This document shows positions 34,723 to 62,002 of a stretch of DNA of 64,000 nt, one piece after another. A model generated the notes under the pieces. That model saw nothing but the letters and a program-made list of their open reading frames with translations. It made no database searches and was not told the DNA's origin. The DNA lies in the NCBI GenBank assembly GCA_016795325.1, contig JAEUHY010000012.1, positions 1-64,000 on the forward strand, given 5' to 3'. Position 1 is the stretch's first letter; each line of letters starts with the position of its first letter. The position numbers and the translations under genes were made by a program. Origin of the DNA: Planctomycetota bacterium (GTDB taxonomy: Bacteria > Planctomycetota > UBA1135 > GCA-002686595).

Positions 34723-34734
34723 GGCAACGCGCCC

Positions 34735-36372: not shown

Positions 36373-36440
36373 CGTCGGACGTGCGCGCATCCGGGCTCGC
36401 TCGCGAGCGCTGAGGCGCGTTCCATCCGCGGAGGTGCGAC

Positions 36441-37790
36441 GTGCGCGACCTGATCTTCACGCTGATGATCGCCGTGCTCGTGCCGGTGAGCTTCCGCCGC
36501 CCGTTGATCGGGCTGCTGACGTTCTCGTGGCTGGCGTACATGCGCACCCAGGACCTGTGCTGGGGGTTCGCGCGTTATCAGCGCTGGTCGTTCTTGATCG
36601 CGATGGTGACCTTCGCCGGCTTCTTCTCGCGCCCCTTCGAGAAGCTGTGGGCCCCGTTCTGGCGCTGCTACGCGATGATCGCGCTCGCGATCTGGGTCGC
36701 GCTGAGCGTCGCCGCGAGCGATGTGAAGTCCTTCGGCGCCGTGCCCGCCATCATCGAGTTCGCCAAGGTCGTCTACATCGCGCTGTTCACGACCGCCGTC
36801 GTGCTCCGCAAGGAGCACCTGCGCATGCTGGTGTGGATCATCGCGCTCTCGTTCGGCTTCTACGGCGTGAAGGTCGGGCTCTCGGGCGTGCTCAGCGGCG
36901 GCAACATCACCGTCAAGCAGGGCCCGGGCGGCATGCTCGAGGACAACAACAACTTCGGGCTCGCGCTCGTGATGTCGCTGCCGTTCCTGATCCAGATCAC
37001 GCAGGCCGAGCGCAACCCCTTGCTCAAGCGCGGCTTCTTGGCGATCGTTCCGCTGACTGCGGTGGCGGTGATGGCCACGCACTCGCGCGGCGCGTTCCTG
37101 TCGATGGCCGCGGCGATCGGCGTTCTGGTGTGGCGCTCGAAGAACCGCTTCGTCGGGTTCGCGATCGCGGGAGTCCTGGCGGTCTCGGCCTTCCTGCTGG
37201 TGCCCGACTCGTACAAGGAGCGCATCAGCTCGATCCAGGACTACGAGCAGGACGGCTCGGCCATGGGGCGCTTGGCCGCGTGGCAGACCGCCATCAACAT
37301 GACCAAGTCCAACCCCGTGTTCGGGGTGGGCTTCGAGAATTTCCAGGCCAACTACTGGCGCTACGCGTCGGGCGCCCAGTCGGAAGGCAAGCGCGTCGCC
37401 CACAACGCGTACTTCCAGATCATGGCCGAGTGCGGCCTGCCCGCGTACGGGCTCTACATGTTCCTGATTGTCGCGACGATGCTCGCGTTGTGGCGCGTGC
37501 GCAAACGAGCCGAGGAGCTGTACGCGCAGAGCTGGATCCGCGACTACGCCGTGATGTTCGAGGCGACGATGGTGGCTTTCATCGTCGGCAGCACGTTCTT
37601 GAACCGCGCGCAGTTCGACCTCTTCTATCACCTGGTGGCGATCGTGATTGCGTTTGAGGTGATCGCCGAGCGCGAGTTCTCCGGCAAGGGCGAGGTCGAC
37701 GGTCCGATCGAGCTGCACGGCGGGGAACTGCGGCCGGTGCGGCGGCGCGGTTTCCGAGGCGTGATTCCGGCCTTCCAGCGCGGCGCCTAG
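36441..37790 (+). CDS. O-antigen polymerase/O-glycosylation ligase, exosortase-A-associated type
   Basis: A 449-aa polytopic membrane protein with about ten to twelve spans. The N-terminus MRDLIFTLMIAVLVPVSFRR and the following WLAYMRTQDLCWGFAR are those of the putative O-glycosylation ligase (DUF5935 plus Wzy_C) of exosortase A systems (TIGR03097 from memory). Further blocks are LEDNNNFGLALVMSLPFL, THSRGAFLSM, NPVFGVGFENF and RVAHNAYFQIMAECG with a conserved His, as in Wzy/WaaL enzymes. It joins repeat units or attaches glycan to an acceptor at the outer face of the inner membrane. The GTG at 36441 is preceded by GGAGGTG, which decides the start. Confidence 0.85.
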   Translation: MRDLIFTLMIAVLVPVSFRRPLIGLLTFSWLAYMRTQDLCWGFARYQRWSFLIAMVTFAGFFSRPFEKLWAPFWRCYAMIALAIWVALSVAASDVKSFGAVPAIIEFAKVVYIALFTTAVVLRKEHLRMLVWIIALSFGFYGVKVGLSGVLSGGNITVKQGPGGMLEDNNNFGLALVMSLPFLIQITQAERNPLLKRGFLAIVPLTAVAVMATHSRGAFLSMAAAIGVLVWRSKNRFVGFAIAGVLAVSAFLLVPDSYKERISSIQDYEQDGSAMGRLAAWQTAINMTKSNPVFGVGFENFQANYWRYASGAQSEGKRVAHNAYFQIMAECGLPAYGLYMFLIVATMLALWRVRKRAEELYAQSWIRDYAVMFEATMVAFIVGSTFLNRAQFDLFYHLVAIVIAFEVIAEREFSGKGEVDGPIELHGGELRPVRRRGFRGVIPAFQRGA

Positions 37791-37824
37791 AGTTCCGCGC
37801 ACTCCACGAGCCGAAAAATCCACC

Positions 37825-39714
37825 ATGTGCGGACTGTGCGGTGTCAGCTTCGACGATCTCTCCCGCGCCCCGGACGGCGCGCGTGTGCTGGCCATGGCGC
37901 GCACCATCGCGCACCGTGGTCCCGACGACGAAGGTCTGTGGACACGAGGTTCCTCGGCGCTGGGCTTCCGGCGGCTTTCGATCATCGACCTCGCCGGCGG
38001 CCACCAACCGATCGAGAACGAGAGCGGTGAGATCGCCATCGCGATCAACTGCGAGATCTACAACTTCGTCGAGCTGCGCGACGAGCTCGAGCGCAAGGGC
38101 CACCGCTTCAAGACACGTTCGGACTCGGAAGTCGTGCTGCACCTGTACGAGGAGCACGGCGAGCGCTGCGCCGAGCGCCTGGTCGGCATGTACGCGTTCG
38201 CGCTGATCGACGTGCGCGACAAGGCGCGTCCGCGCGTGCTGCTCGGCCGCGATCGACTGGGAATCAAGCCGATGTACTTCGCGCGCACCGCCGAGGGCCT
38301 GGTGTGGGGCAGCGAGCCCAAGACGATCCTCGAGTGGGGTTCGACCGCGCGCGAGCTGCGGCCCGAGAAGTTGCTCGACTACCTCGTGCAGGGTTACGTC
38401 GGCGGCGAGGACAGCGCGTGGACCGGGATCCAGCGCTTGCCGCCCGCGAGCACGCTCTCGTGGCGGCCCGGCGAAGCTCCTCAGATCCGCCGCTACTGGG
38501 ATCTGCCCACGGATCGACTGCGCGAGCCTGCGCCGCCCGAGGAGATCCTCGAACAGCTCGACCGCGTCGTGGCCGACCACATGGTCGCTGACGTGCCGCT
38601 GGGCGCGTTCCTCTCCGGAGGGATCGACAGCACCGCCGTCGTGACGTCGATGGCGGCGCGTTCGCGCTCCGCGCTGATCGCTTGTTCGGTCGGCTTCCGC
38701 GAGAAGGACTTCGACGAACTCGATCTCGCGCGCGCCACCGCGTTGCGTCTGGGCGCCGTGCACCACACCGAAGTGCTCGACCCTGATCCAACGCTCGCGA
38801 CCGAAGTGTTGCCGTGGATCTATGACGAGCCGCTTGCCGATCCGTCGACGGTGCCGAGTTACCTGGTGTCGAAGATGGCGCGCGAGCACGTCACGGTCGC
38901 GCTGTCGGGCGACGGCGGCGATGAAATCTTCGCGGGTTACCGACGCTACGTGCACGACCTCGCGGAGAACCGCTTGCGCGGGCGCTTGGGCGCCGCCGGC
39001 GTGAGCGCTGCCGCGGCGGTGGGGGCGCACTATCCCAAGCTCGACTGGGCGCCGCGCTTCCTGCGCGCCAAGACGTTTCTCTCCAACCTCGGACGCACGC
39101 CTGCGCAGGCCTATTGGCGCAGCGTGACGCAGCTCGACCGCGAGAGCGCGCTCGAGTTGCTCGCGCCCGACGTCGTGCGCCGCCTCGCGAGCCACGATCC
39201 GTTCGAGAATTTCGAGCGCTTCTACGCGCGGCCGAGCGTGGACGATCCGCTGTACCGCGCGCAGTACGCGGACTTTCACACCTACCTGCCCGATCAGATC
39301 CTCGCCAAGGCCGATCGCGCCTCGATGGGCGTGTCGCTCGAAGTGCGCCCGCCGCTGCTCGACCACCGTTTCGTCGAGCGCTTCGCGCCGCTGCCGGCGC
39401 GCGAGAAGGTTCGCGGAGCGCGCGGCAAGCACGCCTTTCGCGAGGCTTTGCGCTCGCGTGTGCCCGCCGAGATCCTCGACGGCCGCAAGCGCGGTTTCGA
39501 TACGCCGCTCAAGCGTTGGATCGCGGGTCCGCTGCGAGGCGCCGTGGCCGAGGCGCTCGAGACGCTGCCTGAGGATTGGTTCCGGCGCGACGTGCTGCGC
39601 GCGCGCCTCGCCGAGCACGCCGCGGGCGCGCGCGACCACGGACGTCTGCTGTGGAGCCTGCTCGTGCTCGAACACTGGCGCCGCCGCCACTGCGTGCGCG
39701 GCCTGAGCGCATGA
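37825..39714 (+). CDS. Asparagine synthase-like glutamine amidotransferase (exosortase-A/EPS type)
   Basis: A 629-aa two-domain enzyme. An N-terminal class II glutaminase begins MCGLCGVSF with Cys2 as nucleophile, followed by HRGPDDEGLW and RRLSIIDLAGGHQPI. The C-terminal synthetase domain has the PP-loop FLSGGIDSTAVV and the SGDGGDEIFAGYRRY block. This layout is AsnB, but in exopolysaccharide and XrtA loci the family is thought to amidate sugar carboxyls (for example hexuronic acids) rather than aspartate. UDP-hexuronate-using enzymes are encoded upstream, which would fit. The stop overlaps the next gene as ATGA. Confidence 0.9.
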   Translation: MCGLCGVSFDDLSRAPDGARVLAMARTIAHRGPDDEGLWTRGSSALGFRRLSIIDLAGGHQPIENESGEIAIAINCEIYNFVELRDELERKGHRFKTRSDSEVVLHLYEEHGERCAERLVGMYAFALIDVRDKARPRVLLGRDRLGIKPMYFARTAEGLVWGSEPKTILEWGSTARELRPEKLLDYLVQGYVGGEDSAWTGIQRLPPASTLSWRPGEAPQIRRYWDLPTDRLREPAPPEEILEQLDRVVADHMVADVPLGAFLSGGIDSTAVVTSMAARSRSALIACSVGFREKDFDELDLARATALRLGAVHHTEVLDPDPTLATEVLPWIYDEPLADPSTVPSYLVSKMAREHVTVALSGDGGDEIFAGYRRYVHDLAENRLRGRLGAAGVSAAAAVGAHYPKLDWAPRFLRAKTFLSNLGRTPAQAYWRSVTQLDRESALELLAPDVVRRLASHDPFENFERFYARPSVDDPLYRAQYADFHTYLPDQILAKADRASMGVSLEVRPPLLDHRFVERFAPLPAREKVRGARGKHAFREALRSRVPAEILDGRKRGFDTPLKRWIAGPLRGAVAEALETLPEDWFRRDVLRARLAEHAAGARDHGRLLWSLLVLEHWRRRHCVRGLSA

Positions 39715-40898
39715 GGATCGCGGTGGTGACCTCGCTGTTTCCCAGCTCGGTGAAGCCGCACGAAGGCATCTTCGCGCTGCGGCGCTGGGCCGGCATGCGC
39801 CGGCGCGGCCACGAGGTGCAGGTCGTGCAGCCCTTGCCTTGGGCGCCGCCCGTGGGGCGCGCAGAGTGGCGGCAGATGCGTTGCATCGCCGCACAAGAGA
39901 CGCTTGACGGCGTCCGTGCGAGCCGACCGCGCTACCTGCATCTCCCCGGGCGCGCGCTCGGCAACGCGCGCCGTTTCGCTCGCTGCGCCGAGCGCGAACT
40001 CGCCCGGACTGCGCCGTTCGACGTGCTCGTCGCGGACTACGCCTGGCCGGCGGCGATGCTCGCTCCACTGTGTGCGCGCCGCGCTTGGCCGCTCGTCGTG
40101 AACGGTCGCGGCAGCGATGTGTTGCAAGTCGCCGAGATCCCTGAGCTGCGCGCGGAACTCGCGGCGGCGCTGCGGCTCTCGAAGGGTTGGTGCGCCGTAT
40201 CCGAGCACCTGGTGCGCGCCATGGACGAGCTCGCGGGCGAGTCGCGCGGCGTGCTCGTCGCCAACGGCGTCGATGCCGAGCTGTTCGCGCCGCGCGATAG
40301 GCGCACCGCTCGCGCGTCGCTCGGACTGGGCAGTGAAACGACTCACGACGCTCCGCTCGTGCTCGTCGTCGGGCACTTGATCGAGCGCAAGGACCCGCTG
40401 CTCGCGCTCGAGGTCGTTGCGCGCCTGCGTGCGAGCGCTGCGCCCAACGCGCGGCTCGTGTACGTCGGTCGCGGCGCGCTCGAGGGTGAACTGCGCGCCG
40501 CGGTGGCGTCGCGCGGGTGCGAGGCGTGGGTGAGCTTGGCCGGCGAGGCCGCGCCCGACGTGCTGGCCCGCTGGTACAACGCCGCGGACGCGCTGCTCCT
40601 CACGTCGCGCCGCGAAGGTCGCCCGAACGTCGTGCTCGAGGCGTTCGCCAGCGGTTTGCCGGTGCTCGCCACCGACGCGGGAGGCACCGCCGAGTTGTTC
40701 GCCGGCGACGCGCGCATGCTCGCGCGCACGCGCGAACCGAAGGCGCTGGCTGCGCAACTCGCCGCTTTGCTCGCAGCACCGCGCGACTCCGCCGCGCTGC
40801 GCGCCCTGGCTCAACGCTGGGGCTGGGACTCGGCCTTCGTCGCGCTCGAAACACTGCTCGAGCGCGCGCGCGGCGCCGCCGCTGGAGCGACACGGTGA
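39711..40898 (+). CDS. Glycosyltransferase family 4 protein
   Basis: A 395-aa GT-B fold enzyme. The N-terminal domain starts MRIAVVTSLFPSSVKPHEG, and NGRGSDVLQ fits the acceptor-side motif of the subfamily. The C-terminal donor domain has VLVVGHLIERKDPLLALEV, ARLVYVGRGALEGEL and the EGRPNVVLEAFASGLPVLAT motif with the conserved EX7E pattern (Glu in EGRPN and in LEAF). The donor sugar is unknown. The start overlaps the amidotransferase stop, and its own stop overlaps the next glycosyltransferase, so three genes are coupled. Confidence 0.9.
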   Translation: MRIAVVTSLFPSSVKPHEGIFALRRWAGMRRRGHEVQVVQPLPWAPPVGRAEWRQMRCIAAQETLDGVRASRPRYLHLPGRALGNARRFARCAERELARTAPFDVLVADYAWPAAMLAPLCARRAWPLVVNGRGSDVLQVAEIPELRAELAAALRLSKGWCAVSEHLVRAMDELAGESRGVLVANGVDAELFAPRDRRTARASLGLGSETTHDAPLVLVVGHLIERKDPLLALEVVARLRASAAPNARLVYVGRGALEGELRAAVASRGCEAWVSLAGEAAPDVLARWYNAADALLLTSRREGRPNVVLEAFASGLPVLATDAGGTAELFAGDARMLARTREPKALAAQLAALLAAPRDSAALRALAQRWGWDSAFVALETLLERARGAAAGATR

Positions 40899-42112
40899 AG
40901 ATCCTCTACCACCATCGCACACAGGCCGAAGATGGCCAGGCGGTGCACATTCGCTCGCTGCAGCGGGCGTTCGAGCAACTCGGCCACGAGGTGTTCGAAG
41001 TGAGCCTGGTGCAGCGCGCGGCGCCTTCGGGCGCGGCGAGCGCACCGGCGCGTCCGCCGGCCTGGCGAGCGCTCACGCGACTGCCGCGGTTCGCGCGCGA
41101 ACTCGCCGAGTACGCGTACACATCGATCGGGCGGCCGAAGATCGTCGCCGCGGCGGTGCGCCACAAGGTCGACTTCATCTACGAACGCTACGCGTTCGGC
41201 AACGCCGCTGGCGTGCTGGCGGCGCGGCGCCTGGGCCTGCCGCTGATTCTGGAAGTCAATTCGCCGATGGTGCTCGAGCTCTCCAAGACACGCGGACTTT
41301 CGTTTCCGCGCACCGCGGCTCGGCTCGAGAACTGGATCTTCGCCAGCGCCGACCGCGTGTGCGTGGTGACCGAGGCGCTGGGTGAGATCCTCGTCGGCTT
41401 GGGCGTGTCGCGCGATCGTTTGCTCGTCACGCAGAACGGCGTCGACCTCGCGCGCTACGACTACTCCGATCGCTCCGCGGTGCGCGCCGTCGCTCGAGCA
41501 GACCTGGGGCTCGGGCCCGAGCGGCCGGGTGAGGTCGTGCTCGGTTTCGTCGGCTACTACCGCGACTGGCACCGGCTCGATCTCGTGCTCGACGCGCTCG
41601 CGACGCCCGAACTCGGCGCGGCGCGGCTGGCGATCGTCGGGGAAGGGCCGGCGCACGAAGCGCTGGTGGCGCAGTGCGCGCGCCTGGGACTGGCGGACCG
41701 CGTGCAGTTCTGCGGCCCGCGCAAACACGCCGAGATTCCCGCGCTGCTGCCGGCCTTCGACGTCGCGCTCGTGCCGGCGATCAACCCGTACGCATCGCCG
41801 CTCAAGCTGTTCGAGTACATGGCGGCCGGCCTCCCGGCCGTGGCGCCGGATCAGCCCAACCTGCGCGAGGTCCTGCGCGACGACGTCGACGCGTTGCTCG
41901 TGCAGCCCGGCGACGGCGCCAGCTTGCAGCGCGCGTTGGCGCGGCTCGTGGGCGAGGCCCACGTGCGCGAGCGGCTCGGCGCGCGTGCGCGCGTGACGCT
42001 GCTCGAGCGCGACTACACCTGGATCGGCAACGCGCGCCGCGTGGTCGAGGCCGCGCGCGAGCTCGCTTCCCGAGAATCTGGCGCGAGCGCACGCGCTCGC
42101 CCTCGGGCATGA
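40895..42112 (+). CDS. Glycosyltransferase family 4 protein
   Basis: A 405-aa GT-B enzyme of the type found in exosortase-A-associated loci. The N-terminus MKILYHHRTQAEDGQAVHI is typical of that subgroup (H-R-T-x-x-x-D-G-Q). The middle shows FIYERYAFGN, and the C-terminal domain has LGFVGYYRDWHRLD, LAIVGEGPAHEAL and SPLKLFEYMAAGLPAVAPD. The donor is unknown. The GTG start at 40895 overlaps the upstream stop (GTGA). The methyltransferase gene begins 13 bases after the stop. Confidence 0.9.
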   Translation: MKILYHHRTQAEDGQAVHIRSLQRAFEQLGHEVFEVSLVQRAAPSGAASAPARPPAWRALTRLPRFARELAEYAYTSIGRPKIVAAAVRHKVDFIYERYAFGNAAGVLAARRLGLPLILEVNSPMVLELSKTRGLSFPRTAARLENWIFASADRVCVVTEALGEILVGLGVSRDRLLVTQNGVDLARYDYSDRSAVRAVARADLGLGPERPGEVVLGFVGYYRDWHRLDLVLDALATPELGAARLAIVGEGPAHEALVAQCARLGLADRVQFCGPRKHAEIPALLPAFDVALVPAINPYASPLKLFEYMAAGLPAVAPDQPNLREVLRDDVDALLVQPGDGASLQRALARLVGEAHVRERLGARARVTLLERDYTWIGNARRVVEAARELASRESGASARARPRA

Positions 42113-42125
42113 TGGGGGACTGGCC

Positions 42126-42806
42126 ATGCCCTGGGGAAAGACCAACTACCAACGCTTCTTTCCGAGCCTGACCTGGCAGGTCCGGCCGCAGGTCGAAGCG
42201 CTCGTCGCGGCTCAGCCGCGCGGCGCGCGCATCGTCGATCTGGGCGCGGGCGGCCGCAAACTTCGCGACGACGTGCTGTGCGTCGATTTCGTGCTCTTCC
42301 CGGGCACCAACGTCGTCGGCGACGTGCAGCGCCTGCCGTTCCGCGATGGAGCGCTCGACCTGATCGTCGGCACGGGCCTGATCGAACACGTGGAGGACGA
42401 ACGCGCGTTGCTGGCCGAGGTCGAGCGCGTGCTCAAGCCCGGCGGCGTCGCGCACATGGAGGTGCCGTTCCTCCAGCAGTACCACGACGATCCGATCGAC
42501 TGTCGCCGCGTCACGGTCGACGGGTTGGCGCGCCTGATGCGCCGCTCCGGGCTCGAACCCGTGCGTCAGGGCGTGCACATCGGACCGACGGTGACGCTGA
42601 TCACGCTCTGGTCGTATTACGCCGCGTTGTGGTTCGAGGGCCGCAACCTCTTCGCGCGCGTCGCGAACACGCTCGTGTTCCTGTTCTTCTCCGTGCTGCT
42701 GTGGCCGGCGAAGTTCCTCGACGTGTTCCTGGTGAACAAACGCAGCGCGCACCGCCTCGCGTTCGGCGTCTACTGCACGGCGCGCAAGAGCGGAGGCGCA
42801 CGTTGA
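42126..42806 (+). CDS. Class I SAM-dependent methyltransferase with a C-terminal hydrophobic segment
   Basis: A 226-aa protein. The SAM-binding motif is IVDLGAGGRKL. An acidic motif II region (CVDFVLFPG) and DLIVGTGLIEHVEDERALL with the family His/Glu follow. VLKPGGVAHMEVPF is post-motif III. Near the C-terminus a hydrophobic stretch (VFLFFSVLLWPAKFLDVFLV) suggests membrane association, unusual for the fold. Methylation of a sugar or a lipid-linked intermediate is inferred from the neighbours. The TGA stop overlaps the following TTG start. Confidence 0.82.
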   Translation: MPWGKTNYQRFFPSLTWQVRPQVEALVAAQPRGARIVDLGAGGRKLRDDVLCVDFVLFPGTNVVGDVQRLPFRDGALDLIVGTGLIEHVEDERALLAEVERVLKPGGVAHMEVPFLQQYHDDPIDCRRVTVDGLARLMRRSGLEPVRQGVHIGPTVTLITLWSYYAALWFEGRNLFARVANTLVFLFFSVLLWPAKFLDVFLVNKRSAHRLAFGVYCTARKSGGAR

Positions 42807-43714
42807 GCACGCGCAAGCTGCACTCGCTGTCGTTCGACGTCGAGGAGTACTTCCAGGTCGCCAACCTCCGCGGCCACTTCGCGCGTTCGGACTGGGAGCG
42901 CGTCGAGCCGCGCATCGACGTCGGCATGGACGCGATCCTGGGCGCACTCGAACGCCACGGCGCGCGCGCGACGTTCTTCTTCCTGGGTTGGATCGCCGAA
43001 CGCCATCCGCACCTCGTGCAGCGCTGTCTCGAGGGCGGGCACGAAATCGCGAGCCACGGTTACGAGCACCTGTTCCTCCAGGACCTCGAGCCCGCGTCGT
43101 TGCACCGTGACCTCGAGCGCACCGAACAGGCCTTGATGGCCGCCGGCGCGCCGCGCCCGGTCGGTTTTCGCGCCTCGACGTTCACGCTCACGCGTTCGAC
43201 GTGGTGGGCCTTCGACGTGCTCGTGCAGCGCGGCTACCGCTACGACTCGAGCGTTCATCCGGTGCGCCATCCCGTGTACGGCGTCCCCGGTTTCGAACCG
43301 GGTCTGTCGCGGGTCGCGGCCGCGGGCGGAAGCATCGTCGAGTTCCCGGTGTCGACCTATCCGCTGCTCGGCCGCAACTGGCCGTTCGGCGGCGGCGGTT
43401 ACTTCCGACTCCTGCCCGGCGCCGTGACGCGTGCGCTGGCCGCGGGACTGGAACGCCGCGGTCGGCCGATGGCCTTCTACCTGCATCCGTGGGAGTTCGA
43501 TCCCGGCCAGCCGCGTTGCCCCGCGCCGGCGTTCAAGCGCTTTCGGCACTACCTCAACCTCGATCGCACGCTGCCGCGCCTGGAAGCGCTGCTCGAGCGC
43601 TTCCGCTTCGGCAGCATGGCCGAGGTGCTCGCTGCCGAGGGCTTCGATGCGCCGCGCGGCGCGCTTTCAGCGACGGTCCCGCAACGTGGCGGCCAGGCTG
43701 CGGAGCGCGGCTAG
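42803..43714 (+). CDS. Polysaccharide deacetylase, XrtA/PEP-CTERM-associated type (with DUF3473-like C-terminus)
   Basis: A 303-aa carbohydrate esterase 4 protein. The N-terminus LSFDVEEYFQVANL is the hallmark of the exosortase-A-associated deacetylase (TIGR03006 from memory), in which the DD of other deacetylases reads DVEE. GHEIASHGYEHLF supplies the metal-binding His residues and GFRASTFTL the Arg. The C-terminal part with HPWEFDPGQPR and FRHYLNLDRT matches DUF3473. The start is TTG at 42803, chosen because it overlaps the upstream TGA and has GGAGG seven bases before; no ATG is available. Its 3' end overlaps the convergent TPR gene by 48 bases. Confidence 0.88.
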   Translation: MSTRKLHSLSFDVEEYFQVANLRGHFARSDWERVEPRIDVGMDAILGALERHGARATFFFLGWIAERHPHLVQRCLEGGHEIASHGYEHLFLQDLEPASLHRDLERTEQALMAAGAPRPVGFRASTFTLTRSTWWAFDVLVQRGYRYDSSVHPVRHPVYGVPGFEPGLSRVAAAGGSIVEFPVSTYPLLGRNWPFGGGGYFRLLPGAVTRALAAGLERRGRPMAFYLHPWEFDPGQPRCPAPAFKRFRHYLNLDRTLPRLEALLERFRFGSMAEVLAAEGFDAPRGALSATVPQRGGQAAERG

Positions 43715-46700
43715 CTCGCTGGCCGCGAGCGGATCCTTCACACGCGGCGCGATCTGCGCGAAGACCTCGATCGCGAGCGCCGCATCGCCGGCGGCCGACC
43801 TGCGGCACAGGCCCGCGCCGTAGCAGGTCCCGATCTCGATCATCTCGGCTTCGCGCGTCTTCGGGTCGCGGCTGGCCCACAACTGGGCGAGCAGCACGAG
43901 GCCTTCGCCGAGCCGCGCGCGGTCGGCCCGCAGCAACGCGCGCGCGCGTGCCAGCAGGACGTGGCGGTCGTTGCCGCCGAGATTGCCGAGCACCGCGGCG
44001 CGTGCGATCTGCACTTGCACTGCGTCCGGCGCGCCGTTGCGGCGCGCGCAGACGGCGACCAGGTTCTGCGCGGCGAGCGCGGTGGGCGAGATGCCGAGTG
44101 AGACTTCGAAACTCTCGGTGGCCTCGTCGAAACGGCCCAACTGCGCGGCCAACTCACCGTGCGCGGACCACAACGCCGCGGAGTGCGGCGCGTGCTCGAG
44201 CTCGAGTTCGAGCAGTTGGAGCGCCCGCCTCGGATCGAGCCGCGCGTAGTACTCGGCCCAACGCACGCCCGCGCCCGGTTGCACGGACTCGACGCCGTGC
44301 GGCAAACGGCGGCGCAGGTTCTCGAGTTCGCTGAGGGCGTGTTCGCCGGTCCAGCGGTCCTGCGCGGAGTCGAGCGGATAGGCGAAGCGCAGCGCTTCGA
44401 TGCGCACCCATGGGTCGTCGGGGCGCGTGCTCGTGAGCGCGTCGAACTGCGCGCGCACGAGCCCGTCGAGCGCCGCGCCCTGGGCCTGGCGCGCACGCGC
44501 GAGCAACTCCACGAACTCGCGCACCTGGCGCGGCGTGGCGCGTTCGCCCTCGAGGTCGAGCGCTTTCCTGGCGGATTCGATCGCCGTCGACCACGCTCCG
44601 CGCGCCAGAGCGACGCGTTCGCGCTCCCGCAGCACTTTGGGGTCATACGGCGCCAGCGCGAAGGCCGCGTCGATGGAGCGCTGCGCCGCGTCGAGCGACT
44701 TCGCCACGCGCGCCAGACGCGCGTCGACGAGATGTCCGCTCAGCGGGTCGCTGGCGCCGAGCGCGGCTTTGCGCTCCCGCGCGACCTGCAGGCGCTGCGG
44801 TGCGTCTTCATCGCCGGTCTGCGCGGCGACGACCTGTTCGAGCACGTTCCAGCCCGGCGCGAACTTGGGCGCGAGCTTCGTGAGCTTGCGGGCCAACGTG
44901 TCGGCGACGTCGTAGGCCCCGAGCCACGCCGCGCCGCGCGCAGCGAGGTAGGCGGGCCACAGGCCGCCCTTGCTGCGCTCGGTCTCGGCGGCTTGCGTCT
45001 GGCGTGCGAGGTCCGCGACGGCCCAGGCGGTCCACTCCGGATCGTCGAGCGCTGCGAGCCGCGCCAGCAACGCGCGCGGGTCGCGCTGCACGGCGCCCGC
45101 GGGCAGCGGACCGAACCCGTGCTCGGCGCTGAGGGGATCGAGGCTAGGCGTCGAGTTTTCGGACAACGCACTCACGCACGAGGTCACCAGCGCTTCGAGG
45201 GCCGTCGCCGGCGCGTCGGCGCTCAGCGACTCCTCCGCGCGACGTTCCACCGCGTAGGCCTGCAGCAGCAAGCGCGCATCGCCGAGGCGTTCACCGAGGG
45301 CGGCCAGCGCTGCGAACTGCAGGCCGGTCGCTTGGAACTCGCTCTTGAGCAACGCCTCGTGCAAGTCTGCGCAGTCGCCCCAGCGGCGTTCTTGGACCGC
45401 CGTGACGAGCATGCCCAGTTCGGCGCTGCCGTGCTCGTCGTAGGCGAGCGCGCGCTCGAGCGACTCGCGGGCCAGGGTGAAGTCGTCCGCCAGAAGTGCG
45501 AGCTGCGCCAGACGCAGATGCAGACGCGGCGAACGCCAGCGCGCGCGCGAGTCGAGCAGTTCGCAAGCTTCCGCGGCGACGTCGTGCAGGCCGCGGACCA
45601 TGAGCTCGTCGAGCGCGTCGATGAACGCATCGACGTCGAGCTCGACCTTGACCTTGAGCAGCCGCAGGATGCGCCGCACGTGTTCCGCGTCGCGTTGCCG
45701 CGCGGCGATCGTGATCATCAGCGGAGCGGCCTTGGCCAGCAGCCCCGCGTCGGCGGTCAGCCGGGCCAGCTGCGACTGCGCGGCCACGAGCTGGCCTTGT
45801 TCGGCGTAGAGCTCGGCGAGCAGCAGATGGTCGGCGTCCGAGCGCCGCGCCGGCGCCACGCGTTCCAGGCTCTCGATTGCCGCGGCGAGCTCGCCGCGCT
45901 CGCGCAGGTCGTCGGCCGCCCACCGCCGTCCGATGCCGCCTGGATCAAGGCGCACGAGCGCGAGCTTCCAGCCCGGCGCCTGCACTTCTTCGGGCAGGCC
46001 GGCGAGCGCTTCGACGAGCTCGGGCTTGGCGCCTTCCGCAGCGATCCGCTCGCGCAAGTGGCGCGCCGCTTGGCTCCAGGACTGGGCCGCGAGCGCTGCG
46101 TCGCTCGCCAGGCGCAAGGCGGGCAGCAGGCGCGGGTGCTGCTCGAGCGCGAGCCCCGCGAGCGCGAGCGCCGAGGCGTGTTGTCCCGCGGCGAACTGCA
46201 CCTCGCCCAGCTTCACGCACTCGAACGCAACGCGGCGCTCCTGTGGTGCGAGTTGGTTCGCGTTGCTCAGCGCCTGGGCCTCGAGTTCGAAGTCCACGCG
46301 TCGCGACTTGGAGAAGCGCGCGCCGATCTCTCGCCAGCGCGGCTCGAGCTGCGCGGCTTCCTGCGGCGCGAGCTCGAGCGCGCGCGTGATCGCGTCTATC
46401 GCACGTCCCAGGTGCGGCGGCTCGGCTTCGAGTTCGATCTCGACGAGCCGCAACCAGCCGGCGTGCTGGTTGGGAAGCTTCGTGCTCGCGGCGGCGAGGC
46501 CGCGGCGCAGGAAGTCCGCTTCGGTGGCGGTGTCGGGCGTCGGCTGCGCGCGCAGCGCCTCGGCCATCGAGATCCAGGCCAGCGCAAAGGCGTCGGGGAA
46601 CGGCTCGCGCGTGTACGTGCGCACGTACTTCGAGAGCAGCGGTACGGACTCGGAGGCGACCTTGCGCTTGGCGAAGCTCAGCCCGACGTAGAAGTCACCC

Positions 46701-47761
46701 AGCGCGCGCACGTCGGGATCCGGGGAGCGGCGCATCTGGTTGCCGCTCCCGGCGAGTTCGGCCCAGCGTTCGAGCGCCAGCAATTGCGCCGCGTGTTCGG
46801 CGTAGAACTCCGTGTCGAGCGCGACGCGCCGCATCACGTCGGGTGTGATCAACTCCGGCAGCGCCGCCTCGCGTCCGGCCTCGGGCAGCACCCGCAACAT
46901 CAGTCGCAGCAGCGCCGGCTGCGCCGCGTACGGTGGGAACGAGAGCGCCGCCTGGCCCAGGTTCGCCGCGGCGTCTTGTTCGCCCGCATCCAGCAGGGCT
47001 TGGACGTACGCGATCAGCGCGCTCGGCCGCAGCCCCGCCTTGAGCGACTGCATCAGCGCCTCGGGCGCCTGCGCGAGCAGCGCGCTCGCGTCGTCGAGCC
47101 GCGTCTGGATGTCGCGCGCGAGCTCCTTCTCCGAGCTCGGATAGCGCTCGTACAGCTCCTGCGAGAGCCGCAGCCGCGTCGCGTCGTCGACTGGGCGCGC
47201 GGCGATGCGGCGCATCAGGGCTTCGGTGTCCTTCAATCCGAACTCGGCCGTCAACACGCCGCTGCGGCGCACGCAGTCGTCGATCACGCGCTGCGCCAGC
47301 GCGAGCACCGCCTCCGCGCGAACGCCCCAGGCTTCGGTTTGGTTGCGGTCCTTCGCGAGCACGCGGTCCGCACGCGCCAGCGCTTCCTCGAGTTCGCCGC
47401 TCTCGAGCAGCACGCCGGCCAGCATGGCCTCGATCGCAGGCGAACCGGGTCGGTGGTGGTTGAGCACCGTCTCGAGATCGGCCTTCGCGCGCACCCAGGC
47501 CCGCGACTGGCGCGCGAGGCGCGAGCGTTGGATCAGGATCTCTTCGACGAGCGGTCGGTCGAGGTCGCGCTCGGCCGCCGCCAGCGCCGCGTCGAGGTCG
47601 TGCCCGGCCTGCACCAAGTCGAGCTTGGGGCCGCTCATCAGGACGCGGGCCTGCTCGAGCAGGGCCCGCGGGTCCGCGCTCTCGGCGCGGCGAACGTGCA
47701 GGAACAGGAACGCGCAGAGGGCGCAGGCCGCGAGCGCGTAGAGCCAGTAGAGGAAGCGCAT
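43667..47761 (-). CDS. Large TPR-repeat protein, membrane anchored
   Basis: A 1364-aa protein with MRFLYWLYALAACALCAFLF at the N-terminus, a hydrophobic segment that could be a membrane anchor. A lipobox-like LAAC at residues 10-13 is embedded in it. The rest is almost entirely Ala/Leu/Arg/Glu-rich helical repeats with TPR character (for example ALAAAERDLDRP, LFAQAPE-type and YDVADTLARKL stretches). No catalytic motif was seen. It lies next to a sigma-54 activator and a kinase-like protein and inside an exopolysaccharide locus of exosortase-A type. The XrtA-locus protein PrsT is likewise a large TPR lipoprotein, so a comparable assembly or secretion role is possible but homology is not shown. 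Confidence 0.8.
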   Translation of the reverse strand: MRFLYWLYALAACALCAFLFLHVRRAESADPRALLEQARVLMSGPKLDLVQAGHDLDAALAAAERDLDRPLVEEILIQRSRLARQSRAWVRAKADLETVLNHHRPGSPAIEAMLAGVLLESGELEEALARADRVLAKDRNQTEAWGVRAEAVLALAQRVIDDCVRRSGVLTAEFGLKDTEALMRRIAARPVDDATRLRLSQELYERYPSSEKELARDIQTRLDDASALLAQAPEALMQSLKAGLRPSALIAYVQALLDAGEQDAAANLGQAALSFPPYAAQPALLRLMLRVLPEAGREAALPELITPDVMRRVALDTEFYAEHAAQLLALERWAELAGSGNQMRRSPDPDVRALGDFYVGLSFAKRKVASESVPLLSKYVRTYTREPFPDAFALAWISMAEALRAQPTPDTATEADFLRRGLAAASTKLPNQHAGWLRLVEIELEAEPPHLGRAIDAITRALELAPQEAAQLEPRWREIGARFSKSRRVDFELEAQALSNANQLAPQERRVAFECVKLGEVQFAAGQHASALALAGLALEQHPRLLPALRLASDAALAAQSWSQAARHLRERIAAEGAKPELVEALAGLPEEVQAPGWKLALVRLDPGGIGRRWAADDLRERGELAAAIESLERVAPARRSDADHLLLAELYAEQGQLVAAQSQLARLTADAGLLAKAAPLMITIAARQRDAEHVRRILRLLKVKVELDVDAFIDALDELMVRGLHDVAAEACELLDSRARWRSPRLHLRLAQLALLADDFTLARESLERALAYDEHGSAELGMLVTAVQERRWGDCADLHEALLKSEFQATGLQFAALAALGERLGDARLLLQAYAVERRAEESLSADAPATALEALVTSCVSALSENSTPSLDPLSAEHGFGPLPAGAVQRDPRALLARLAALDDPEWTAWAVADLARQTQAAETERSKGGLWPAYLAARGAAWLGAYDVADTLARKLTKLAPKFAPGWNVLEQVVAAQTGDEDAPQRLQVARERKAALGASDPLSGHLVDARLARVAKSLDAAQRSIDAAFALAPYDPKVLRERERVALARGAWSTAIESARKALDLEGERATPRQVREFVELLARARQAQGAALDGLVRAQFDALTSTRPDDPWVRIEALRFAYPLDSAQDRWTGEHALSELENLRRRLPHGVESVQPGAGVRWAEYYARLDPRRALQLLELELEHAPHSAALWSAHGELAAQLGRFDEATESFEVSLGISPTALAAQNLVAVCARRNGAPDAVQVQIARAAVLGNLGGNDRHVLLARARALLRADRARLGEGLVLLAQLWASRDPKTREAEMIEIGTCYGAGLCRRSAAGDAALAIEVFAQIAPRVKDPLAASELAALRSLAATLRDRR

Positions 47762-47815
47762 GGAGGCCGGGGGGACCGTAGCGTGTCGGTTGCTGCGCGC
47801 CGTGTCCAGACGGCT

Positions 47816-49237
<1,422 letters not shown>

Positions 49238-49419
49238 GTCGCGTCTTGTCGACACGCCGCGGCTCGGGCCGGAGTGTGCGTCCGGCGCGTGGTTCGTCCG
49301 CTGAGCGCGCGCCGGAAGAAGTTTCGCGGCGCGAGGCGTTCCGCGCGGCGCCGCGCTCGGCGAAGGTGCGGCGCGCCCGGCGCTGCACGCGCCGAACGGA
49401 CCGTGGCGAGCGCCGTCGG

Positions 49420-50784
49420 TCAGGCGAACGGATCTTCCGCCCGGGCGCGTGGGCCCCGAGTCGGGCGCGCGGCCGGGCTCTCGGGCAAGGTGCTGCGCTC
49501 GACCGGCAGGCGCATCCGAATGGCGAGCTGGCCCTCGGCCGGCGTGGCCACTTCGAGCGCGCCTCCCTGGCTGCTCACGATCGCGCTCGCCGCGGCGAGT
49601 TCGTTGGGGCCGAGGTCGGGCAGGCGCTCGCGCAACACGTTGACGTCGAGCACGTTTTCGGCGGCCACGCCCTGCAGCGGGCCGGCCGGGAATTCGATGC
49701 CGATGGACACCGCGCTGCCGTTGATCGGCGTGTAGGCGACCTTCACCGTGTCGCCTCCGCTGGAGCACAGGCGTGCGACCCCGAGCACCGTTTCGAAGGC
49801 CAGGGTGAGCGCGGAACGGTCGGCGCGCACGATGAACTCGACCGCGGGGCGGCCACCGGCGCCCGCCGCCGGCTGAAAGCGCGGTCCCTTGCGGCCGCGC
49901 AGCGTGAGCGTGGTGAGCAGCTCCTCGATCACGCCCGAGACGTCGAATTCTTCGACGCCGCGCGGCGGGGGAGCGGCCAGGCAGGCCAGGCTGCGCGTGA
50001 AGCGCAGCAGACGCCGCAGCTCGATCTGCGGGCCTTCGAGGTCGTCTTCCGCGGCGCGTCCGCTCTCGCGCAGCGCGAGGAAGGCGAGTTCGAGGCGCTG
50101 CGAGATGTCCGCCAGCACCGCCACTTGGTCGCGCCCGATCGAAAGGCCGCTGGTGAGCGGCGCAGGCCCGCGGCGGGGGGCCGGGGTCAGTTCGACCTGG
50201 GCGACTGGGGCTGGGGCGGCTACGGACGCCCCCGGTGCGGAGCTCACGGGCGCCGGCTGTTGGCGGGCTGCTTGCGGGAACGAAGCCGTCTCGTCGGGCA
50301 CGTGGGGCTGGAGCGTGGCCGCAACGCCGGCCGACGCGCTCCCGGTCGCGGCCTCGGCGCCCGCCAGCCAGGCCCGCAATTCGTCGAGGTCCGGCGGCCA
50401 GGGCGCGAAGCGCGACCCCGGCAGGCGCCGCACCGCGCGGGCCAGGGCGTTGGCGGGGTCCGTTCCCAGGCCGACCACTGCCTCGAGGGCCCCGGCTGCG
50501 ACCCGGTTGCGGATCCAGCCGATGTCCTCGAGCGAACCATGGTCGCAGTCGAGGAGCAGCAGCGGGGGGCGAACTCCCGGCGCGGGGAGTTCGTAGAGCT
50601 GCTCGAGGGCGCTGCAGCTCCCCGGGCGGAGCGCCGACAGCACCGCGTGCAGCTCGGCTTGCCGCGGCCCAGGCGCCACGAGCAGGCGCGGTCCGGCGGA
50701 CGCACCGCGGGCCGCGGGCGAAAACCCGCGCACTCCCGACGGAGACGGTCCTCCCGCCTCCGGCGCATTTTGGCCGCCGTTCAC
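49420..50784 (-). CDS. Histidine-kinase-like protein without recognisable catalytic motifs
   Basis: A 454-aa soluble protein. Residues about 30-140 are receiver-like (alternating strands and helices, LLLLDCDHGSLED). A Pro/Ala linker follows. Residues 210-440 look like a dimerisation helix plus an ATPase-like domain (VLADISQRLELAFLAL, then FDVSGVIEELLTTL and a strand pattern up to QLAIRMRLPV). The usual phospho-His H-box, N-box Asn and G-box DxGxG were not found, so activity as a kinase is doubtful. The GTG start at 50784 has GAGGGG close upstream. Its place beside a sigma-54 activator suggests a sensor or adaptor role. The HK relationship is a fold-level inference. Confidence 0.55.
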   Translation of the reverse strand: MNGGQNAPEAGGPSPSGVRGFSPAARGASAGPRLLVAPGPRQAELHAVLSALRPGSCSALEQLYELPAPGVRPPLLLLDCDHGSLEDIGWIRNRVAAGALEAVVGLGTDPANALARAVRRLPGSRFAPWPPDLDELRAWLAGAEAATGSASAGVAATLQPHVPDETASFPQAARQQPAPVSSAPGASVAAPAPVAQVELTPAPRRGPAPLTSGLSIGRDQVAVLADISQRLELAFLALRESGRAAEDDLEGPQIELRRLLRFTRSLACLAAPPPRGVEEFDVSGVIEELLTTLTLRGRKGPRFQPAAGAGGRPAVEFIVRADRSALTLAFETVLGVARLCSSGGDTVKVAYTPINGSAVSIGIEFPAGPLQGVAAENVLDVNVLRERLPDLGPNELAAASAIVSSQGGALEVATPAEGQLAIRMRLPVERSTLPESPAARPTRGPRARAEDPFA

Positions 50785-50927
50785 ATTCCCCTCGCGAACG
50801 CGGGCGATCGTAGCGCGCTTGCGCAGGCTGGCAAGCGCACGGCTGGGATCGGCGTGCTGCGCGCCGCGCCGTTTTCTCCCTCGGACCGCGGCCCGCTGTC
50901 GGTACGTTCCTAGGCTGTCCCCGCGCC

Positions 50928-51878
50928 ATGCGATCCGCGCCCCAGCTCTCCGTCGTCGTCCCCGTCTTCAACGAAGAGGACAGCGTGCCGATCCTCTACG
51001 AAGAGGTTCGCGCGGCCTTGGACGGCGCCGGGCACTCGTTCGAGCTGATCCTCGTCGACGACCATTCGACCGACACGAGCCTCGCCAAGATGCTCGAACT
51101 GCGCCGGCGCGACAGCCGCGTCAAGGTGCTCCACTTCCGGCGCAACTACGGTCAGACGGCCGCCATGTCGGCGGGCTTCGAGCGCGCTCGCGGGCGCGTC
51201 GTCGTGACGCTCGACGGCGATCTGCAGAACGATCCCGCCGACATTCCGCGCATGCTCGCGAAGATCGACGAGGGCTTCGACATCGTCGCGGGCTGGCGCA
51301 AGGCGCGCAAAGACGGGTTCGTGCTGCGGCGCGCGCCGTCGCAGGTCGCCAACCGGTTGATCGCCTGGGTCACCGACACGCCGATCCACGACACGGGCTG
51401 CACGCTCAAGGCCTTTCGCTCGCAGCTGGTCAAGAACCTGCCGATCTACGCCGAGCAGCACCGCTTCTTGCCCGCCATGTCGCGCGGCAGCGGAGCGCGC
51501 GTCGCGGAGATCGTCGTCAACCACCGCGCGCGACGCTTCGGCTACAGCAAGTACGGGCTCGAGCGCGCGCTGCGCGTGCTGCTCGATCTGTTCGTGATCA
51601 AGTTGATCAGCCAGTTCGCGCACCGGCCCTTGCACTACTTCGGTCTCTTCTCGCTGCCCTTCGCGGCGCTCGCGCTCGCAGTGCTGTTCGTCGGCGTGTT
51701 CGATTTCGAGAAGTTCGACGTCATCACCGAGTGGCCGCAGTTCGCCTTCACCACGTTCATGCTGTTCCTGCTGCCCGCAGCCCACTTCGTGCTGCTGGGG
51801 CTGCTCTCGGAACTGGTCGTGATCGCCAGTGGTTTCCACCGCCGCAGCGTCACCGACTCGCTCGTCAACCGCCGCTAG
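50928..51878 (+). CDS. Family 2 glycosyltransferase, dolichol-phosphate-mannose-synthase/GtrB-like
   Basis: A 316-aa membrane-anchored GT-A enzyme. The catalytic domain has SVVVPVFNEEDSVPILYEE, LILVDDHSTDTS and the metal-binding TLDGDLQNDPADI. YGQTAAMSAGFERARG is also typical. Two C-terminal hydrophobic spans (about 225-300) match GtrB/ArnC-type enzymes that load sugars onto undecaprenyl phosphate. It diverges from the kinase-like gene and is followed after 12 bases by a related protein that lacks the metal motif. The product could feed the GT39-like enzyme at 55063. Confidence 0.9.
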   Translation: MRSAPQLSVVVPVFNEEDSVPILYEEVRAALDGAGHSFELILVDDHSTDTSLAKMLELRRRDSRVKVLHFRRNYGQTAAMSAGFERARGRVVVTLDGDLQNDPADIPRMLAKIDEGFDIVAGWRKARKDGFVLRRAPSQVANRLIAWVTDTPIHDTGCTLKAFRSQLVKNLPIYAEQHRFLPAMSRGSGARVAEIVVNHRARRFGYSKYGLERALRVLLDLFVIKLISQFAHRPLHYFGLFSLPFAALALAVLFVGVFDFEKFDVITEWPQFAFTTFMLFLLPAAHFVLLGLLSELVVIASGFHRRSVTDSLVNRR

Positions 51879-51890
51879 AGATCTGCATCT

Positions 51891-52895
51891 GTGTCAGCTC
51901 CCACCACCAACCGCACACCGCCCGCGCCGCGTCCGCGCGACATCACGGTCGTGCTGCCGGTCACGTCGCCGCACGCTGAGCTCGACCAGGTCGTGGCGAG
52001 CCTGTCCGAGCAGTTCACCCGCATGGGCAAGGACTGGGAGTTCGCGCTCGTTTTCGACGGCGTGCGCGGCGACGCGTGGCGCAAGGCCGAAGAACTGCGC
52101 GCGCGCTTGGGCGATCGAATCCTCACCATCGCCTTCGAGAAGCCCTTCGGCGAATCCGTGTGCCTTTCCGCGGGCGCGGAAATCTCCGGCGGCCGGGTGA
52201 TCGTCACCTCGCCGCAGTACGTGCAGATCGATCCGGTCGAAGTGCGCCGCATGCTCGAGCAGATCGAGAGCGGCGCCGACATGGTCGTGCCCTGGCGCAG
52301 TCCGCGCGTCGATCCGTGGCTCAACCGCTTGCAGTCGGCGAGCTTCAACTGGTTGATGCGCAAGATCAACGGCGGCCAGTTCCACGACCTCAACTGCTAC
52401 CTGCGCGTGTTCAAGCGCGAGGTGCTGGCCGACGTGACGGTCTACGGCGACATGTACCGCTTCCTGCCGCTCATCGCGCAGCGCCAGGGCTTCCGCGTCG
52501 TGGAAACCCAAGTGCGCCACCTCAAGGAGTGGGGCAAGGCCGGCTTCTTCGGCGTCGGCGTGTACATCCGCCGCTTCCTCGACGTGGTCGGGGTCGTGTT
52601 CTTGACGCGCTTCACGCTCAAGCCGCTGCGCTTCTTCGGCTCCGTGGGGCTGGTGCTGACGGTGTTCGGCGGCGGGCTACTGGCCGGCGTCATCTACCAG
52701 AAGCTGTTCCTCAACGGCCAACTGCAGAATCGGCCGCTGTTCCTCCTCGCGCTGATGTTGTTCGTGCTCGGCGTGCAGGTCATCGGTTTTGGCCTGGTCG
52801 GTGAGATCATCGTCTACACGCAGGCGCGCAACCTGCGCGAGTACCGCATCGAGCGCGCCTGGGACGACGACGCTGGCGACGGGGAGCGGAGCTGA
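51891..52895 (+). CDS. GT2-type paralogue with missing catalytic DxD
   Basis: A 334-aa protein with the same layout as the preceding glycosyltransferase: a GT-A domain followed by two C-terminal spans. The positions are alignable (RVIVTSPQYVQIDPVEVRRML against RVVVTLDGDLQNDPADIPRML), but DGD is replaced by SPQ, and the first acidic motif reads ALVFDGVRG instead of VDDHS. The catalytic metal site is therefore lost or rebuilt. It may be a non-catalytic partner of the upstream enzyme or a different transferase. The GTG at 51891 is the start and lacks a strong ribosome binding site. The FemAB-like gene follows after 8 bases. Confidence 0.78.
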   Translation: MSAPTTNRTPPAPRPRDITVVLPVTSPHAELDQVVASLSEQFTRMGKDWEFALVFDGVRGDAWRKAEELRARLGDRILTIAFEKPFGESVCLSAGAEISGGRVIVTSPQYVQIDPVEVRRMLEQIESGADMVVPWRSPRVDPWLNRLQSASFNWLMRKINGGQFHDLNCYLRVFKREVLADVTVYGDMYRFLPLIAQRQGFRVVETQVRHLKEWGKAGFFGVGVYIRRFLDVVGVVFLTRFTLKPLRFFGSVGLVLTVFGGGLLAGVIYQKLFLNGQLQNRPLFLLALMLFVLGVQVIGFGLVGEIIVYTQARNLREYRIERAWDDDAGDGERS

Positions 52896-52903
52896 CGCAT
52901 TCG

Positions 52904-53971
52904 ATGAGCGAATCCGCCGTGCTCGCTTCCGCTGCGCCCGCGCAGATCGGCGCCTCCGCTCCGGCGGACGACGCCGAACGCGACGCGTTCGTCAACGCCC
53001 ATCCACGCGCGACGTTCTTCCATCTCTCGGGCTGGCGGCGCGTGGTCGAACGTGTGCTGTGCCATCAACCCGCCGACCTCATCGCGCGGCGCGACGGGCG
53101 CATCGTCGGCGTGCTGCCGCTGATGCGCGCGCACTCGTTGATCACCGGCAACGCGCTCATTTCGATGCCGTATGCGGTGTACGGCGGGCCCGTCGGCGAT
53201 GACGCGTCGATCGAGGAAGCGCTTGTGCGCGCGGCCATGGCGCAGGCCGAGCGCGAGCGCGCGAGTCGGCTCGAGTTGCGCTGCCTCAGCGCGCCGCCCG
53301 TCGAGCTCACGCCGTCGAACCTGTACGCGACGTTCATCTCCGATTTGCCCGCCAAGCCCGAGGACGTGCTCGCGCGCATGCCCAAGAAATCGCGCGCGGA
53401 GGCCCGCAAGGCGCGCGACAAACACGGCCTGACGCTCACCGAAGGCCTGTGGTACTTCGAGGACTTCTACCGCTTGTTCCACCGCAACAAGCGCTCGCTC
53501 GGTTCGCCTGGATTGCCGCACGCGTTCTTCTGGACGCTGCGCAAGGAGTTCGGCGAGGGCGTGCGCATCCACGCGGTCCACAAAGGCAGCGAGGTCGTTG
53601 CCGCGGTGATGAGCTTCGTTTGGCGCGGCGAGTTGATGGCGTACTACTCGGGTGCGGCCGACGGCGCCGACCGCAACTTCAGCGCGAGCAACTTCATGTA
53701 CATGGCGCTGCAGGAGTGGAGCGTGGAGCAGGGGCTCAAACGCTTCGACTTCGGCCGCAGCCGCAAGGATTCGGGCGCGTTCCAGTTCAAGGAGCACCAG
53801 GGCTTCACGGCGCGTGACCTCGAGTACCGCTTTCACCTCGTGCGCGACCGCGGGCTTCCGTCGCTCAATCCGTCGAACCCCAAGACCAAGTGGTTGCGCG
53901 ACGGTTGGGCGCGTTTGCCGCTGAGCGTTTCGATGGCGCTCTCGAGCGAATTGGCGCGCTACCTGCCCTGA
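52904..53971 (+). CDS. FemAB-like protein of XrtA/PEP-CTERM system type
   Basis: A 355-aa GNAT-fold protein. It matches the FemAB-related family found with exosortase A (TIGR03019 from memory). Blocks are [58 protein letters not shown] and the C-terminal FDFGRSRKDSGAFQFKEHQG. FemAB proteins transfer amino acids from tRNA to peptidoglycan precursors; the XrtA-type members have no proven substrate. It ends the plus-strand run of GT2, GT2-like and FemAB genes and converges on a gmhB-like gene with a hairpin between. Confidence 0.88.
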   Translation: MSESAVLASAAPAQIGASAPADDAERDAFVNAHPRATFFHLSGWRRVVERVLCHQPADLIARRDGRIVGVLPLMRAHSLITGNALISMPYAVYGGPVGDDASIEEALVRAAMAQAERERASRLELRCLSAPPVELTPSNLYATFISDLPAKPEDVLARMPKKSRAEARKARDKHGLTLTEGLWYFEDFYRLFHRNKRSLGSPGLPHAFFWTLRKEFGEGVRIHAVHKGSEVVAAVMSFVWRGELMAYYSGAADGADRNFSASNFMYMALQEWSVEQGLKRFDFGRSRKDSGAFQFKEHQGFTARDLEYRFHLVRDRGLPSLNPSNPKTKWLRDGWARLPLSVSMALSSELARYLP

Positions 53972-57262: not shown

Positions 57263-57442
57263 GGGATGGTGCTGTGGCCCGTCGGGCGCGTTGGAACACG
57301 GCGCGGGCGCGTGGGGAGCGGAAGGTCGGCGCCGCGGCTCGGCGCTGCGAAAGGGCGGGGAGGATAGCACGGGCGAGCGCGCTGCGGACCGCTGACGACG
57401 AGCCCGAGTTTCGCAGCCGCGGCCGGCACGGGCCGCGCCCGA

Positions 57443-58873: not shown

Positions 58874-59039
58874 GGCAGCAGGTGGTCGGGTTGGAGGCGG
58901 GTGGGCGGTGGGGGCGCAAAGCGGCCCGGTCGGAGTGCTTGGAAGTATAGGCGGTCCGTGTGCTCGCCACGCGCGGCTGCCGCGAGGATCTCGCCCTCGC
59001 AGGGGCTGCCTGCGCGTGCAAGCTGCAGTCCTTTCCGGT

Positions 59040-59864: not shown

Positions 59865-59911
59865 CGCCGCCAACACTGCGCGCGCTGCCCCTGGGATCGC
59901 TCCACACGCCC

Positions 59912-60445: not shown

Positions 60446-60622
60446 CGCCCCGCCGACATGTCCCATGCCGCACGATCCTTCGACTGGCGCGCGAGCGCCT
60501 TCGCCGGCGCATCCGCCGATGCTGCGCCCGCGCGTGCGCTGCAGCCACAGGACGAACGCTTTTCCGACCACAAGCGGCGCGAACAGTCGGCGAGCGACGC
60601 AGCGCGCCCGGCCCTCGAACCG

Positions 60623-62002
<1,380 letters not shown>

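Follow-up and report, generated by a model that had tools for sequence, protein, structure and literature searches.

The 64,000-nucleotide stretch of DNA analysed here (hereafter the window) comprises bases 1-64000 of a 583-kb contig from the genome of a Planctomycetota bacterium (G000; 6.48 Mb, 89.9% complete) and contains three minus-strand genes that are flanked on both sides by plus-strand polysaccharide genes. They encode a kinase-like protein (KIN), a sigma-54 activator (REG) and a tetratricopeptide repeat protein (the TPR protein), and all three open reading frames (ORFs) are present where the original prediction had placed these gene types together inside a polysaccharide locus. Our results support that this trio is a conserved unit of the locus and that both KIN and REG are missing residues needed for normal phosphotransfer. 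The genes, and the domains recognized in KIN and REG, are the following.

49420..50784, minus strand: KIN, kinase-like protein; ORF of 454 amino acids without catalytic boxes and without Pfam or NCBIfam match; homologues found
50341..50700, minus strand: KIN residues 29-148, predicted CheY-like receiver fold in which the acidic pair and Lys are missing
49975..50145, minus strand: KIN residues 214-270, putative DHp-like helical hairpin, phospho-His absent (from the model, histidine-kinase-core matches and a register inferred from sister families)
49489..49953, minus strand: KIN residues 278-432, HATPase (CA)-like fold according to the model; N-box and both G-boxes replaced
47816..49237, minus strand: REG, sigma-54 activator with pseudo-receiver, AAA+ domain and Fis-type helix-turn-helix (HTH); 473 amino acids counted from ATG
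48854..49213, minus strand: REG pseudo-receiver, active-site residues L-D-D-S-R; Response_reg 18.6 bits
48293..48787, minus strand: REG AAA+ sigma-54 interaction domain, GAFTGA present
43667..47761, minus strand: TPR protein, 1364 amino acids, hydrophobic anchor at the N-terminus

KIN has no counterpart among the Pfam and NCBIfam families, and the same holds for the family members tested (0/34); the earlier claim that it shows no H-, N- or G-box is, therefore, right. Its histidine-kinase core is visible in the predicted fold and not in the sequence: the AlphaFold2 model and its comparison with the PDB (in the VIA list obtained with the full-length model, residues 210-430 were the part well tested) predict a catalytic core with a DHp hairpin and a Bergerat-type CA domain. 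A HATPase-type fold is thus predicted at 49420-50784, where its absence had been proposed as grounds for abandoning the idea. The phospho-His, the N-box Asn, DxGxG and GxGLGL of an active histidine kinase are all lacking in KIN. The N-box and both G-boxes are missing in place in all 54 KIN copies that have the CA part (9 of the 63 KIN pieces are without CA columns), and the motifs FPAGPL and LGPN[AE]LAAA, common to most copies, stand where these boxes would be. Helix 1 contains no H[ED] in 49 of 50 copies, the exception being G014. Eight loci repeating a genome are left out of one of the KIN tables. When KIN was searched with loose patterns, 14 genomes gave letters resembling DxGxG and two gave letters resembling NLxxNA, none of them at the box position; the His control of this search was empty, the kinase pieces starting behind the H-box, and the 23 comparison kinases were picked by their G-boxes and, consequently, give no control on these. 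A global profile alignment with the sister families discussed below sets Asp226 of KIN opposite the Asp that replaces the His there, followed by an eight-residue gap, which suggests a register for the lost His in a stretch that the local alignment skips. The first register considered, a His to Gln change at residue 229, was replaced once the sister families had been compared.

The N-terminal domain of KIN is predicted, on the basis of the structural model, to adopt a receiver fold; it gave a weak profile match with the REG receivers (E 0.0024, probability 12%) and no profile match with the receiver of a second regulator encoded in the window. The KIN proteins of the closest relatives end in a conserved DPFA (window 49420-49434, minus strand), with Asp451 and Pro452 nearly invariant among 26 proteins, and DPF is present in 10 of the 61 KIN ends across the family. 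Purifying selection on KIN is seen in each of the 14 close pairs compared (dN/dS 0.09-0.46, calculated from stop-to-stop frames, which would inflate the values).

The AAA+ domain of REG is intact (Pfam Sigma54_activat 224.7 bits, GAFTGA kept), as are the lid and the Fis-type HTH; with RpoN encoded in the genome, REG counts by sequence as a sigma-54 activator. Its receiver is weak by Pfam (18.6 bits) and gave E 3.8e-17 in a profile comparison with the window's second regulator, the one canonical receiver used. The original prediction held that this receiver had lost its Asp pair and Lys, which is true of one acid of the pair and of the Lys, now Arg; the other acid, the Asp site and Ser are kept (L-D-D-S-R). 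The counts cover the REG copies whose Walker A could be read (53 plus that of the window): none of the 54 has all five receiver residues, only 7 have both acids of the pair, and every one of the 54 retains the GAFTGA-type loop. The Asp site is Asp in 28/54, Glu in 13/54 and another residue in 13/54, and the Lys position holds Lys in 12/54 and Arg in 24/54. A pseudo-receiver has been defined as a receiver without any one of DD, D, T and K (PMC12632262), and since none of the 54 has the full set of five residues, all are pseudo-receivers in the sense given there. The idea that a Glu at the Asp site mimics phosphorylation and goes together with a missing DHp part was dropped, as Glu also occurs with a complete KIN and without KIN. 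REG is read from an ATG at 49237, although its translation may in fact begin at the in-frame GTG at 49255; many REG genes start near a conserved [MVAL]SK..[DN]M (VSTRRDM in the window, 49235-49255, minus strand), a likely start site or conserved element.

The distribution of the trio was surveyed in the 81 genomes of the window's family, i.e., all of that family among 154. KIN is present in 61 of them, some copies being cut by contig ends, and stands divergent beside the glycosyltransferase gene GT2a in 60, the exception being cut by a contig end. REG lies directly behind KIN on the same strand in 40 of the 61 genomes (three of the 40 cut), and seven KIN loci are cut before REG. The proposed test of whether the trio is conserved with polysaccharide genes thus had a positive outcome, with the same order and orientation found in many genomes. 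The recurrence of the same genes, order and orientation in tens of genomes, together with the purifying selection on KIN, indicates that the association goes beyond chance. Outside the family, the best KIN match had an E of 1.2e-12 among the matches listed, which cover the kinase-like columns only. The other genes of relevance in the window are listed below.

50928..51878, plus strand: GT2a, family 2 glycosyltransferase, divergent neighbour of KIN
51891..52895, plus strand: GT2b, family 2 glycosyltransferase
52904..53971, plus strand: FemAB-type XrtA-associated protein (TIGR03019, 294 versus a cut-off of 260.35)
42278..43714, plus strand: ORF with XrtA-type polysaccharide deacetylase (TIGR03006, 305.8 versus a cut-off of 276.2); true start internal, gene convergent to that of the TPR protein
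33940..42806, plus strand: remainder of the polysaccharide locus (export, chain length, Wzy-type ligase, amidotransferase, glycosyltransferases, methyltransferase)
57443..59173, minus strand: RpoN (sigma-54), one of two genomic copies; start uncertain

A GGDEF protein followed by the second sigma-54 response regulator, which has a complete receiver, is encoded at 59063-62002 (plus strand); both also occur near the polysaccharide locus in several relatives.

Six other families of the same order were represented by 17 loci from 17 genomes, read around the FemAB gene (19 of the 20 genomes searched gave a match; three loci have little sequence before GT2a). REG was found in 12 of the 17 and a KIN-like ORF in 10, the latter in three families (f4, f6 and f7), and in all eight loci having both the KIN-like ORF lies between REG and GT2a. 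These ORFs match the family's KIN core (profile E 9.7e-15 over 202 columns) and are closer to kinases: HisKA is above its Pfam cut-off in two of five tested and HATPase_c in one of five, with no Pfam match for that of locus L271. An Asp stands in place of the His, e.g., ISDEVNNPL, in the nine with a readable H-box, a count for which the search pattern itself demands Asp and which the tenth ORF, of L271, does not join for want of a readable H-box. L271, from one genome, has a complete receiver (D-D-D-T-K; Response_reg 89.6 bits) and, between REG and KIN, a separate 250-amino-acid kinase with all boxes (HATPase_c 77, HisKA 36 bits), and in L277 a complete receiver (E-D-D-S-K) adjoins a pseudokinase. 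In L266, L267 and L269, from two sister families, a gene of the FGE-sulfatase type (formylglycine-generating-enzyme-like) takes the place of KIN, an assignment tested for the L266 copy and made by eye for L267 and L269.

The original prediction had likened the trio to PrsT/PrsR/PrsK, described in XrtA (PEP-CTERM) loci (PMC1569441, PMC9850573). Both sets combine a TPR protein, a receiver-bearing sigma-54 activator and a kinase-type protein, encoded close to polysaccharide genes of the XrtA type (PMC1569441). Membership of that system is, nevertheless, rejected on the curated NCBIfam cut-offs, under which all three proteins fall. REG scored 372.9 versus 502.6 bits for PrsR (TIGR02915, the whole open frame 47816-50971 being scored) and the TPR protein 22.9 versus 312.2 bits for PrsT (TIGR02917), where a lipoprotein is part of the test. 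KIN gave no match at E up to 1 to PrsK (TIGR02916, at least 300 bits with H, N and G boxes), and nothing in the whole genome exceeds that cut-off. TPR matches of the window's TPR protein are weak in Pfam. A clear N-terminal hydrophobic stretch is present in 38 of 51 homologues, the other 13 frames lacking it probably owing to stop-to-stop reading, and unlike in PrsT a lipobox-like pattern is missing in 50 of the 51; the exception is the window's own copy, where further hydrophobic residues follow. KIN differs from PrsK in having no catalytic box, a receiver-like domain of its own and no membrane stretch that could be seen by eye. Unlike in the XrtA loci with PrsT/R/K, no exosortase (PF09721) was matched in this 89.9% complete genome, despite an XrtA-type deacetylase and FemAB protein above their cut-offs.

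Among solved structures, the best sequence match of REG is ZraR and that of the KIN profile ZraS. ZraS is a live membrane kinase with a periplasmic sensor, whereas KIN has no active-site boxes. FleQ, the third best PDB match of REG, shares the arrangement of pseudo-receiver, AAA+ domain and Fis-type HTH and is listed among the atypical regulators in PMC12632262. No FleQ domain was seen in the window's REG among the best 25 of 27 Pfam rows. The arginine of the c-di-GMP motif of FleQ is not kept in the REG alignment, so that the alignment with FleQ lends no support to a FleQ-like control of REG by c-di-GMP. In working style, the Caulobacter pseudo-histidine kinase DivL appears to be a relative of KIN (PMC4211667), as does FleQ of REG (PMC12632262); DivL carries PAS domains, and its targets are phosphorylated DivK and the kinase CckA, whereas KIN has a receiver-like N-terminal domain and adjoins a pseudo-receiver activator. 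No description of a KIN-REG-TPR module was found in the literature searched.

With a rough probability of 0.45, we interpret KIN and REG as the likely remains of a ZraS/ZraR-like pair, in which KIN would act by docking, without phosphorylation, to hold or release REG. This interpretation builds on the observed sequence features of KIN and REG, the gene order, the absent N- and G-boxes and the purifying selection on KIN, and on the predicted receiver and histidine-kinase folds of KIN. As selection maintains KIN and other motifs have taken over from the old boxes, KIN most likely continues to bind a partner, for which adjacency and ancestry make REG the first candidate. KIN may dimerise through its DHp-like hairpin, and this hairpin and the CA-like domain would contact the pseudo-receiver of REG or another partner in the way a live kinase contacts its regulator. 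Such contact would alter the assembly of REG, perhaps gated by the receiver-like domain of KIN, and REG would then activate sigma-54 promoters of the polysaccharide locus. Control independent of phosphorylation, as originally suggested, is what we infer, with the Asp site still kept in 28 of the 54 REG receivers. It looks as if the kinase half of a ZraS/ZraR-type system lost its chemistry before the families split, or as if the live kinase (cf. L271) is a separate gene that most lineages lack; the kinase-shaped KIN would have stayed and the REG receiver drifted afterwards in the window's family.

A number of observations weigh against this interpretation. Eight of the 61 genomes have KIN and the TPR protein without a complete REG: five keep a short ORF with the HTH, and in three none was found. 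The five (L194-L197 and L201, one genus) have REG shrunk to a short ORF with a Fis-type HTH between KIN and the TPR gene; in a sixth genome alongside them (L200) no REG remnant was found. A GDP-mannose-dehydratase-like ORF, identified by eye and with phmmer using one copy, lies behind KIN in 6 of the 61 genomes, in four of which KIN and REG are on different contigs (L061/L213, L065/L214, L192/L212 and L063/L215). In three of these four the REG ortholog and the TPR gene adjoin the remaining half of the polysaccharide locus, the fourth being cut; the receivers of L212 and L213 keep both acids, Asp and Lys. Conversely, REG is directly divergent from GT2a in 13 of the 20 genomes without KIN according to the profile, with the TPR gene found in 12 and a weak KIN match in one; the others comprise one with a KIN-like fragment at a contig end, one cut and five without a GT2a match at E 1e-60. 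This repeated separation makes a second partner of KIN, or another protein controlling REG, possible. In addition, eight KIN copies lack, by profile coverage, the DHp-like part, the proposed docking part, and the tie to ZraS/ZraR comes from best matches. The suggested co-evolution of KIN and the activator gave a weak signal: among the 25 genomes with all six genes, the distance correlation with three neighbour genes removed was r 0.23 (p 0.027) for KIN-REG, 0.23 (p 0.013) for REG-TPR and 0.13 (p 0.10) for KIN-TPR.

The expectation of -24/-12 promoters near the cluster also failed: there is no enrichment in the window (11 matches versus 5-14 in five shuffles) or in 31 regions upstream of GT2a, scanned with weights that had not been fitted, over some 260 bases ahead of the GT2a match for relatives and 143 for the window, and the strict pattern has 0 matches genome-wide versus 5 for a reversed control. 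A candidate sigma-54 promoter upstream of GT2a was rejected as evidence, the best window site, directed at GT2a, having an uncorrected p of 0.03 as one of 62 tests over the 31 regions. The genome thus has zero strict matches despite two RpoN genes and many sigma-54 activators. The RpoN gene lies 7 kb away, immediately beyond the polysaccharide locus, and is near the locus in many relatives too. An EF-P gene (56693-57370, minus strand) adjoins RpoN, and a second RpoN is present on contig C8; the window's RpoN is, therefore, treated as housekeeping, and its dedication to the polysaccharide locus is rejected.

The alternative that survives best, which we consider unlikely but a serious contender, is that KIN serves the polysaccharide machinery as a cytoplasmic scaffold or regulator for GT2a, GT2b or another product of the locus, REG being a separate factor that shares the divergent position by chance. 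GT2a indeed remains the neighbour of KIN in 60 of 61 genomes, including those in which REG is absent, reduced to its HTH or relocated, and REG also persists beside GT2a without KIN. However, the best matches of the two proteins are the halves of one two-component pair, their genes are neighbours on one strand in 40 of 61 genomes, the eight sister loci having both place KIN between REG and GT2a, and KIN has no Pfam match of any kind. It seems decidedly improbable that REG is still phosphorylated, with a distant kinase acting on the kept Asp, Arg partly replacing Lys and KIN modulating the traffic as DivL does. There are 52 HATPase_c matches in the genome, 28 of the 54 receivers retain the Asp site, receivers are complete in two sister loci, one of which also has an intact kinase, and phosphorylation sometimes survives changes at DD, T or K, as PMC12632262 reports; yet the Asp site is Glu in 13 and another residue in 13 of the 54, both acids remain in only 7 and all five residues in none. 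That the trio is decaying, with KIN and the receiver as relics and REG constitutive through its AAA+ domain and HTH, nothing being sensed, would fit the graded loss (complete receivers in two sister loci, 0/54 in the family), the HTH-only remnants in five genomes and the DHp loss in eight, but is very improbable given the purifying selection on KIN in 14/14 pairs (dN/dS 0.09-0.46) and the replacement of the lost boxes by motifs that most copies share, e.g., FPAGPL and LGPN-LAAA.

A graded series exists at one gene position. Its live end is a complete receiver with an intact kinase and KIN (one sister locus), followed by a complete receiver with the pseudokinase alone (one sister locus) and by the pseudo-receivers with pseudokinase of the window's family; at the far end, 13 genomes have the pseudo-receiver by itself and five have an HTH remnant together with the pseudokinase. 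This series could reveal whether a kinase fold without chemistry controls a pseudo-receiver. Tentatively, and as a reading less likely than not, we propose a planctomycete module, found across several families within one order, whose two-component halves have both lost phosphotransfer and whose kinase-shaped half has nevertheless been retained, rebuilt as a purely mechanical switch for the sigma-54 activator of a polysaccharide locus. If true, this would be a two-component system that works through docking only, both of its halves having no phosphotransfer.
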